From Gammaproteobacteria bacterium (GTDB lineage Bacteria; Pseudomonadota; Gammaproteobacteria; Eutrophobiales; Eutrophobiaceae), in contig JANQJZ010000019.1 in assembly GCA_028281365.1 (NCBI GenBank), forward strand, positions 1 through 33,997: DNA of 33,997 bases, written 5' to 3'. How positions within the stretch are numbered: the stretch's first letter is position 1; every line of letters starts with the position of its first letter. A program made the translations under genes and the position numbers. Below the pieces are notes generated by a model. It worked only from the letters and a program-made list of their open reading frames with translations. It had not been told where the DNA came from and did not search any database. Positions 1-3,507 of the stretch are shown here, one piece after another.

Positions 1-1899
1 CCATTGATCATCTGCCAGCATCGTACTGTTATCCCCCAGACCACCTCTTTCAATATTTCTCGTATATTGGGTATTCAGGTTAACATCGGGAACATAATAG
101 GCACGCTCGGCTGCCAGTAACTGGCGTTGGTTGGATGAAATAACAAAATCAGTTTGTTCTAATTCGGGTGAATTACTAATGGCCCGTTCAACTTCAAATT
201 CAGTGAACACTTCAAAACTGAACGTATTATCAAAGAAACGTTGAAAGCGTTCACTATCAAGAATGTTTAAAAGATCAGAGATCCCTGCATCGGTGACTGC
301 AATAGCATCAGACAATGACATATTCAATTGTCGTTTTAACTCTGTTTCCGCCTGATCACGAACAGACCGGGCTGAATATAAATTTCGTCGGTCTGTTGCC
401 AATTGACTCTGCCAACGTAATACTTCCGAACGATCTGAGTAACCGATCTTTAGTCGGGTTTCAGCTAACTCTAGATTAGTTTCAGTAACACCGAGGTTAG
501 AGCGCCGAACTTTTTCTGTTGCATGTGCAGATAATAATTGTAAATAAGCCGTTGCACTGGAACTGATAACATCAAGGATGCTGCTGTGGAGTGCTGCAGT
601 TTCTGCCTGTTCCAGTAACCTGGCAACATCGTAGCCTGATTTTCTGCTCTCGGAATAAATAACCTGACTTACCGAAACATCAGCATCGGTTGATCGTTGT
701 GCTTGTGACAGACCAGCACGATCACGATCAATCTGCGTTACACCTGTACCAAAATTTAATTGTGGTAATAAAATAGAACGTGCATTTGCTACATCATCTT
801 TGGATAACTCCAAATCAAGCTTATCAACTTGTAGTGCCAGGTTTGCATTAACTGATCGTTGTATCGCCTCTACCATACTTATAGCAACTCTGTTATCTGT
901 TGCTTCTGCATACAACAGATCTGAGATCTCCAGGAACTGCCATTTGGGAGAAAAATTAATTGCCCTGGCCGTTCTCATGTTAATCGCAAGTTTTGGCGGT
1001 TGATCAAGTTCTACTTTTAACTCTGCAGCATTGGCCCCCAATAATATGCTTTGTACGTAAAGTGCAATACGGCGTGCATAACGGATCGTATCAACTTCCC
1101 GCCCACTTAACGTTGCCAACAAACCCATTTCAAGCTCTTCCCGTCCCAACAATGAAAAACTGGGCAGCTTTCTTTCAATTAACGATTGAGCAAGCATCTT
1201 AAAATCATCACTACTAAAACGAAGTAACGGTGGGACATAAACACTATCAACATCGTCAGGAATTCCATTCAAGGTCTCTACCGGACTGTCAATCACCGGT
1301 AGCATTGTTAATTCAAACCCGAGTTCCCGCTGAACGTTGTACGTTGTCCCTTTTAATTGAGGTAATGCTTCCAGAAATAATTGATCGACAGGAATAGCAA
1401 GATGATTAAATTGAATCAATTGATGAAACTGCCTTAAATCTTCTTCAACAGTTCTATTATCACTGATATAAACGTAATTATTTTTGCCACTCTTTCCATC
1501 TACATAAGGTAACTCCTGCAAAACACGATCGGCAACAATAGAAGCAATAACAGGCTTACTCAATTTTTCAAACTGTGCAGCCTGATGTGAGCTTAATAAG
1601 CCGTTAGTAATGATTAAATCAATTTCAGGATCGCTTAATAACTCCCTTAATACTTTATTAATTTCTTCAACCCGCCAATCTCCATGTTTTATCTTGTTTT
1701 CAGGAAATGAAATATTAAACTCACCCGAAGTTAGATCCTGTATTTCTTTAACAATCTGTTCGAAAGGTAAAAACTCCCTTTTTACAGGGCCATCCAGTAC
1801 TACACCAATTCGAACTATTTGCTCAGCATAAGCATGAGAGAAATAAACCAAAAACAATATCAAGAATAAAACTATTCTATTTTTGATTTTTTCCAACAT
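1..1899 (-). CDS. Fusion of ABC-type substrate-binding domain and TolC-family outer-membrane channel (partial, C-terminus off the window)
   Basis: Reading the minus strand from the ATG at 1899, the frame stays open for 633 codons to position 1. Residues 1-25 form a signal peptide (Lys-rich start, hydrophobic core, FSHAYA then EQ). Residues 27-325 resemble the ABC_sub_bind (TrpX-like) family: VRIGVVLDG start, an ITNGLLSSHQAAQF loop, a VDSVYVPP segment, and an IALYVQSILLGANAAEL-LAINMRTARAINFSP ending. From about residue 345 the protein becomes a TolC/OEP-type helical repeat (SVNANLALQVDKL, then VSQVIYSESRKSGYDVARLLEQA, LAETRLKIGYSDRSEVLRWQSQLA). It starts 5 nt after the thyA stop with no clear Shine-Dalgarno, so translational coupling is likely. 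Expected location is the outer membrane with a periplasmic ligand-binding head. Pump partners would lie left of the window. The TolC part is clear. The N-terminal family is assigned from remembered motifs. Confidence 0.85.
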   Translation of the reverse strand, partial: MLEKIKNRIVLFLILFLVYFSHAYAEQIVRIGVVLDGPVKREFLPFEQIVKEIQDLTSGEFNISFPENKIKHGDWRVEEINKVLRELLSDPEIDLIITNGLLSSHQAAQFEKLSKPVIASIVADRVLQELPYVDGKSGKNNYVYISDNRTVEEDLRQFHQLIQFNHLAIPVDQLFLEALPQLKGTTYNVQRELGFELTMLPVIDSPVETLNGIPDDVDSVYVPPLLRFSSDDFKMLAQSLIERKLPSFSLLGREELEMGLLATLSGREVDTIRYARRIALYVQSILLGANAAELKVELDQPPKLAINMRTARAINFSPKWQFLEISDLLYAEATDNRVAISMVEAIQRSVNANLALQVDKLDLELSKDDVANARSILLPQLNFGTGVTQIDRDRAGLSQAQRSTDADVSVSQVIYSESRKSGYDVARLLEQAETAALHSSILDVISSSATAYLQLLSAHATEKVRRSNLGVTETNLELAETRLKIGYSDRSEVLRWQSQLATDRRNLYSARSVRDQAETELKRQLNMSLSDAIAVTDAGISDLLNILDSERFQRFFDNTFSFEVFTEFEVERAISNSPELEQTDFVISSNQRQLLAAERAYYVPDVNLNTQYTRNIERGGLGDNSTMLADDQW

Positions 1900-1904
1900 G
1901 TTAA

Positions 1905-2699
1905 TCAAACCGCTATGGGAGCAATTATCCTGGGATGAAATTGATAATTGATTAACTCAAAATCTTCGTAATGAAATGAAAATATATCTTTTATTTCAGA
2001 GTTAATCCGCATCTTGGGTAAAGGATAAGGTTTACGCTTTAATTGTTCTTTAACTTGTTCTAAATGATTTAAATAAATATGCGCATCTCCAAAAGTATGC
2101 ACAAATTCACCTGGTGTTAAATCAGTTACCTGGGCAATCATCATTAATAATAATGAATAAGAGGCAATATTAAAGGGAACGCCAAGAAAAATATCTGCAC
2201 TACGTTGATACAATTGGCAAGATAGTTTTCCATCGATAACATAAAACTGAAAAAAAGCATGACAAGGCATTAATGCCATTTGATTCAGCTCCGCAACATT
2301 CCATGCACTAACGATTAGGCGCCTGGAATCCGGATTTGTTTTTATTTGTTCGATCACCTGTTTAATTTGATCCACTGCTTTGCCATCAGCTGTTTTCCAT
2401 GACCGCCATTGTGCGCCATAAACCGGACCCAATTCACCATCTTGATCTGCCCATTCATCCCAGATCGTTACTCCATTATCATTAAGATATTTGGTATTAG
2501 TATCGCCTTGAAGAAACCAGAGCAATTCATAAATAATAGACTTCAAATGACATTGTTTCGTCGTAACGAGTGGAAACCCGTCATCTAAATTGAATCGCAT
2601 TTGATAGCCAAAAATACTTTTAGTCCCTGTTCCGGTTCTATCCTGTTTTTCTACACCGTTATTTTGTACATAACGCAACAAATCGAGATATTGCTTCAC
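1905..2699 (-). CDS. thyA: Thymidylate synthase
   Basis: This cytosolic enzyme makes dTMP from dUMP with methylene-tetrahydrofolate. At 264 residues it is exactly the E. coli length. The catalytic cysteine is Cys146 in [12 protein letters not shown], preceded by the phosphate-binding [11 protein letters not shown], and followed by [17 protein letters not shown]. The C-terminus ends in IAPIAV, as expected for the flexible closing tail. The start is GTG at 2699. An AAAGGA ribosome-binding site lies inside the last codons of lgt, 7 nt separate the two genes, and this arrangement implies co-translation with lgt. The substrate-binding/TolC fusion follows after 5 nt, so the three form one apparent operon. 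Confidence 0.97.
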
Positions 2700-2706
2700 T
2701 TTGTGT

Positions 2707-3507
2707 TTAATCCTTTAGTGTTCTATTTCTTTTACAAGCAACAGTTATAAATAACAAACCAAATATTATCATAGGAATTGATAATGCCTGTCCCATAGTA
2801 AACCAGTTAAATGCCAAATAACCAATTTGGGAATCCGGTTCACGGACAAACTCTACGACAAACCTGAAAACACCGTAGCCCAACAAAAACAAACCGGATA
2901 CCGTAGCAAGCGGTCTGGGCCGGGAAGAAAACCACCATAAAATAATAAACAGTATTAAACCTTCCAGAAATGCTTCGTACAATTGCGAAGGATGCCTTGG
3001 GACTCCACCCGCTGCAGGCGCTGGAAAGACCATTGCCCAGGGTAAATCACTCGGACTGCCCCATAGTTCGCCATTAATAAAATTACCAATACGCCCGCAA
3101 CCAAGCCCAACGGGAACAACTGGCGCAATAAAATCAGTCACTTTAAAAAAAGGAGTTTTGATCTTTTTGGAAAAAAACCATACAGCAATAATGACGCCTA
3201 TTAACCCGCCATGAAAAGACATACCACCTTGTTGTAAATAAAAAACTTCTATTGGATGTTGCAAATAGTAAGAAAAATTATAAAAAATTACAGAACCCAA
3301 TCGACCACCAATTATGATCCCCAGCATTGCATAGAATAATAAATCAGCCACCTGCTCATGACTTATATTCCAATAGTCCTGTCTTCCCCTCAGGCGTAAT
3401 AAATACCAGGCAATCACAATCCCGACAACATAGCTGATGCCATACCAATGGATCTTTACTGTACCCAAGTCCAGAGCAACGGGGTCAATATTGGGATAGG
3501 TCATCAT
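2707..3507 (-). CDS. lgt: Phosphatidylglycerol:prolipoprotein diacylglyceryl transferase
   Basis: This inner-membrane enzyme transfers diacylglycerol to the lipobox cysteine of prolipoproteins. The 266-residue protein has about seven hydrophobic segments and the Lgt signature [13 protein letters not shown] at residues 138-150. It also carries the MSFHGGLIG loop with the important His99, and [12 protein letters not shown] further on. Two consecutive ATGs (3507 and 3504) could start it, and the Shine-Dalgarno is weak. It is slightly shorter than the E. coli protein (about 291). It is the first gene of the lgt-thyA-fusion run, a pairing common in gammaproteobacteria. Confidence 0.97.

Follow-up and report, generated by a model that had tools for sequence, protein, structure and literature searches.

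A TolC-type outer-membrane factor with a putative ligand-binding head in a gammaproteobacterial tripartite efflux operon

Gene layout and operon context

The window analyzed here, a stretch of 33,997 bases, is a complete contig (G000:C57), and one open frame on its minus strand runs from an ATG at 1899 to base 1 without a stop. Because the window is the whole contig, the gene is truncated at its 3' end. The part that is present (1..1899, minus; residues 1-633 of about 783) comprises a signal peptide, a head of approximately 305 residues and, after a short linker, the first two thirds or so of a TolC-type channel. By inspection, the signal peptide (1825..1899, minus; residues about 1-25) is of type I, with a hydrophobic run, cleavage between AYA and E, and no lipobox cysteine. 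It is followed by the head with its ABC_sub_bind fold (910..1824, minus; residues about 26-330), recognized by AlphaFold, Foldseek, VIA and a profile search. The linker (868..909, minus; residues about 331-344) fills the gap between the head model and the OEP match at 344-345, and the remainder (1..867, minus; residues 345-633) holds the first OEP repeat and the start of the second. The first-pass annotation, which had described a single frame with a signal peptide, a ligand-binding domain and a TolC-like channel, is borne out by frame reading, Pfam, profile and structure model, and its head limits (27-325) match those of the model (27-330).

The channel half is well-defined. Pfam OEP (PF02321) is found in the truncated copy with an E-value of 2e-23 (83.6 bits against a gathering score of 22), confirming the claim of a TolC-type channel, and the full homologue at locus L005 reaches 161 bits over two repeats. 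The cut-off of 225 for TIGR01844, the TolC subfamily of NCBIfam, is reached neither by the window copy (71 bits) nor by the full homologue (136 bits). The phmmer match to TolC starts at TolC mature residue 6, so that about 14 residues tether the head to the mature N-terminus.

Searching the own genome with the C-terminal portion of the best homologue and with its associated pump led to contig C17. The minus strand of C17 opens with QWSVGVQ... and carries the last 152 channel residues (9662-9210, minus). The ends of both contigs have 8 bases in common and the junction DDQW/SVGV is in frame, giving DDQWSVGVQ as in L005. Based on this homology and the 8-base overlap, the two contigs would together encode one gene of about 783 residues. 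Directly after the channel end, C17 encodes an RND adaptor (TIGR01730, 218 bits with a cut-off of 94.9) and an AcrB-family pump (ACR_tran, 556 bits), followed by an MlaC-domain protein and folA. The operon accordingly contains both the ACR_tran pump and the HlyD/RND_mfp adaptor that define RND efflux, and since the missing end of the fusion gene adjoins them, the fusion protein is their outer-membrane factor and the whole a tripartite efflux operon. The pump genes that the first-pass annotation expected to search for beside the fusion gene are present behind its end on C17, and the same adaptor and RND genes tie the channel to a pump. Its view of a complete ligand-binding fold joined to a channel of the TolC type, an uncommon feature among efflux channels, is upheld.

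Upstream of the fusion gene lie thyA (1905..2699, minus; Pfam 1.1e-128) and lgt (2707..3507, minus; Pfam 4.3e-84). The fusion gene starts 5 nt past the thyA stop, a spacing already noted before and correct on the minus strand, and co-transcription with thyA is possible. In 27 of the 30 thyA loci compared (own genome and relatives), thyA is located near lgt and folA, and homologous pump operons of relatives occupy other sites, near a rho-like gene in G006 and near cytochrome c maturation genes in G021. The lgt-thyA link is therefore incidental: the 30 neighbourhoods mark lgt and thyA as members of an ancestral lgt-thyA-folA cluster and thyA as a neighbour that is no pump part, the functional tie of the headed channel to lgt and thyA is rejected by synteny, and the view of the lipoprotein and dTMP genes as its odd partners is not supported. 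From gene order, the linkage is best read as an insertion of the pump operon into an older cluster. In the own genome, this operon sits between thyA and mlaC-folA, where an MlaC/HpnM-like periplasmic gene just precedes folA (L019 4381-4983). Three relatives (L121, L122 and L123) likewise have an MlaC-like gene between thyA and folA, without a pump there, and the gene was rejected as a pump part on this ground.

Fold of the head and distribution of the fusion

The sequence of the head on its own is a poor match to the ABC_sub_bind family (PF04392), with E-values of 0.084 and 0.021 and 12.5-14.5 bits, below the gathering score of 25.9, which the homologue of Sulfuricurvum kujiense passes with 38.6. 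A profile of 20 N-terminal domains retrieves the solved proteins 3lkv (6.7e-9) and 3lft (6.9e-5) from the PDB. The AlphaFold model of the head, made with 20 sequences, has a pLDDT of 91 and a pTM of 0.83 and replaces an earlier run from four sequences (pLDDT 55). Foldseek ranks 3lft (9.8e-17), 6hnj, 3lkv and 6hni at the top (E about 1e-15 to 1e-17; TM normalized by target 0.59-0.75), and VIA-align gives Z-scores of 26.5 for 3lkv, 25.4 for 6hni, 25.3 for 3lft and 21.7 for 6hnj, with all following matches at 18.7 and less. These leaders are solved family members with the two-lobed class I binding-protein fold. The 20-sequence profile, the confident model and the structural matches establish the head, by structure, as a complete member of the ABC_sub_bind fold group, although the window sequence alone stays below the Pfam threshold. 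The proposal that the N-terminal 300 residues match substrate-binding profiles thus holds for the family profile (3lkv, 6.7e-9) and the structure, but not for the single-sequence Pfam search.

The group of 3lft, CD0873 and 3lkv consists of proteins binding phenylalanine, tyrosine and tryptophan (PMC6816091), and the matched structures include 3lft with L-Trp and CD0873 with Tyr. At the two positions published as specificity-determining in VC_1101/CD0873 (PMC6816091), the window head has G252 and T271 in a profile alignment, and both positions vary across the family. An aromatic amino acid is therefore not to be assumed as ligand, and the carry-over of the TrpX/CD0873 ligand was rejected. Two TetR-type regulators flank the headed-channel operon of Sulfuricurvum (L088 6379-6963 and 14457-15074); they are a possible handle on an inducing ligand.

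In a sample of 369 gammaproteobacterial genomes, surveyed with a head profile and with a channel profile built from the fusions, the head profile finds the head in a long frame (772-832 amino acids; the window's own copy contig-cut at 652) in 20 genomes. Intact homologues, that of Sulfuricurvum included, measure 771-826 amino acids. The channel profile recovers the same 20, all fused, with E-values below 1e-60, and the next channels, at about 1e-27, are unfused. A tree that also included 13 unfused channels from the same genomes places the fused channels in one group with a support of 98/97 (midpoint rooting, limited sampling). Every channel of this clade carries the head among the genomes sampled. 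Over all pairs, the identities of the head follow those of the channel with a correlation of 0.976, and their means are 32 percent for the head and 36 percent for the channel: the head is conserved almost as well as the channel, and both halves evolve together. Outside Gammaproteobacteria, a full fusion with both Pfam domains above cut-off is encoded on a plasmid of S. kujiense (Campylobacterota; WP_041667226.1); in a broader phylum sample, only unfused binding proteins were found besides the window.

An assembly or frameshift error joining two genes might be suspected, as the window copy ends at a contig edge. Unbroken fused frames in about 20 other genomes, including that of a named isolate, make such an error hardly conceivable and dispose of the frameshift caveat raised beforehand; the fusion is not an artefact since the channels of the clade all carry the head and both halves evolve together.

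Several deviating arrangements were seen. In Cetobacterium (Fusobacteriota; L089 6446-8626), a TolC-family protein has an N-terminal region of ~290 residues with a weak match to the head profile that looks shortened, and its neighbours are an RND partner and a two-component system. Free-standing distant relatives of the head of ~390 amino acids (E about 1e-10 to 1e-20) occur at L054 9176-11646, where two stand in tandem, L055 8204-9391 and L057 7330-8523; no pump genes adjoin them. At L047 (8077-9321 and 7421-8080; G249), the head frame leads into what is left of an RND pump, its final ~220 residues, and the channel, the adaptor and most of the pump are absent. An operon of this same kind has here either undergone an internal deletion or been misassembled.

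Two pump types and possible roles of the head

The headed channel is paired with two unrelated pumps, RND pumps and RbbA-type ABC exporters. The order fusion-MFP-RND is found in the window genome and at L004, L005, L017, L046, L052, L053, L056, L058 and L059. At nine other loci (L049, L050, L051, L061-L065 and L088), the fusion is accompanied by a HlyD adaptor, an RbbA-type ATPase-permease and an ABC-2 permease. The RbbA assignment follows from an NCBIfam match above cut-off for L050 and the RefSeq annotation for L088, from gene order and sequence likeness for L049, L061 and L064, and, for L051, L062, L063 and L065, from where a divergent HlyD-type adaptor lies and how much room it leaves for the ATPase-permease and permease genes. 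L048 holds the headed channel as a lone copy. A single clade of ABC-type-partnered channels is compatible with the tree (p-AU 0.19). The importer permease and ATPase that would accompany an ABC_sub_bind protein are not among the neighbours, which are exporters.

We consider it rather probable that the protein is the outer-membrane factor of a tripartite pump, that each channel subunit bears a fold of aromatic-amino-acid-binding proteins on its mature N-terminus, and that ligand closing the head leads to capture or to recruitment of adaptor and pump. The channel would form a TolC-like trimer, with three heads hanging by short linkers outside the periplasmic tunnel. There, a head would close on a small molecule in the periplasm and either concentrate it beside the pump or favour docking of adaptor and pump; in the case of docking, export would run when ligand is present. 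Ligand-dependent gating or loading of the channel is plausible, while gating by the head as such is conjecture. From the structure of TolC, the N-terminal heads presumably fall outside the tunnel in the periplasm and not in its lumen, so that a simple plug is disfavoured.

Two other roles have to be weighed against this one. A tethered binding protein could pass its ligand straight to the pump, RND or ABC, which would then export it, as an importer reversed. The head has the fold of proteins that capture substrates and RND pumps draw substrates from the periplasm, which fits such a transfer. ABC-2 exporters of the RbbA kind, however, are expected to pick up what they export on the cytosolic side or in the membrane, and the head is nevertheless retained with them; moreover, the expected place of the head at the TolC N-terminus, outside the tunnel, would be far from the periplasmic entrance of the RND pump. 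We regard direct capture as doubtful, though possible. Alternatively, the head might bind no ligand and act as a structural collar or docking domain, e.g., to adaptor hairpins or the cell wall at mid-height of the TolC-like tunnel. When cleft-side and opposite loops were compared, with loops assigned crudely from the DSSP string only, conserved positions were not concentrated at the ligand cleft, and since this comparison gave no support for a pocket, the non-binding scaffold is a serious rival. The most conserved segments also include the non-cleft motifs W75, Y144 and the NMxTAR-P segment, and the head is kept with the channel across both pump types. Yet the highly confident model keeps both lobes of the fold in full, where a pure scaffold could tolerate the loss of one lobe, its best matches are ligand-binding proteins, and the conserved D36, G100 and D124 are situated at strand ends facing the cleft in this fold class; on balance we judge a pure scaffold unlikely.

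Within the preferred reading of a ligand-responsive head, a role tied to the channel and adaptor, i.e., ligand-dependent recruitment, is in our view a little likelier than simple delivery to one pump, as an RND pump can be replaced by one of the ABC type without the channel losing its head. In the usual view of tripartite pumps, the choice of substrate takes place at the inner membrane and the outer-membrane channel is a passive duct. That a clade of channels always carries the head, even when one pump type behind it gives way to the other, suggests recognition of a substrate or signal at the channel, which is directly testable on a soluble domain of 300 residues, with a homologue available in the cultured organism S. 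kujiense. Tentatively, and with less confidence than for the reading of this single protein, a widespread class of efflux channels might be ligand-regulated, in which a tethered periplasmic domain senses a substrate or signal and switches the recruitment of adaptor and pump, for RND and ABC exporters alike. We know of no channel-side ligand control in tripartite pumps.

Comparison with known systems

No paper describing the head-channel fusion was found in the literature searched, mostly open-access, and the accessible part of a Chem Rev review on tripartite pumps makes no mention of such a domain. The combination is real, conserved in many bacteria and apparently undescribed. Headed channels are mis-annotated as 'ABC transporter substrate binding protein', the deposited name of WP_041667226.1, and the present finding would correct these annotations.

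Compared to TolC and other outer-membrane factors (OEP, PF02321; E. coli TolC 1ek9), the channel half can be aligned along almost its entire length and is likewise encoded in an operon with an adaptor and an RND or ABC pump. It differs by the additional ligand-binding-fold head of ~305 residues on the mature N-terminus and by scoring below the TIGR01844 cut-off. With the ABC_sub_bind proteins (SP1069/TrpX-type 3lft, VC_1101 3lkv, CD0873 6hni), the head shares the same two-lobed fold across its length (Z 25-26.5), but the identity is 15-18 percent, no importer genes adjoin and the published specificity residues are not kept; whereas those proteins are free or lipid-anchored, the head is fused to a channel. 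The nine loci with a HlyD adaptor, an RbbA-type protein and an ABC-2 permease next to the fused channel resemble the YhiI-RbbA-YhhJ exporter. The E. coli cluster is not known to include an outer-membrane gene of its own, while the headed-channel loci possess one. S. kujiense WP_041667226.1, finally, is a full homologue of the window protein, but in place of an RND pump it is accompanied by an RbbA exporter and TetR regulators.
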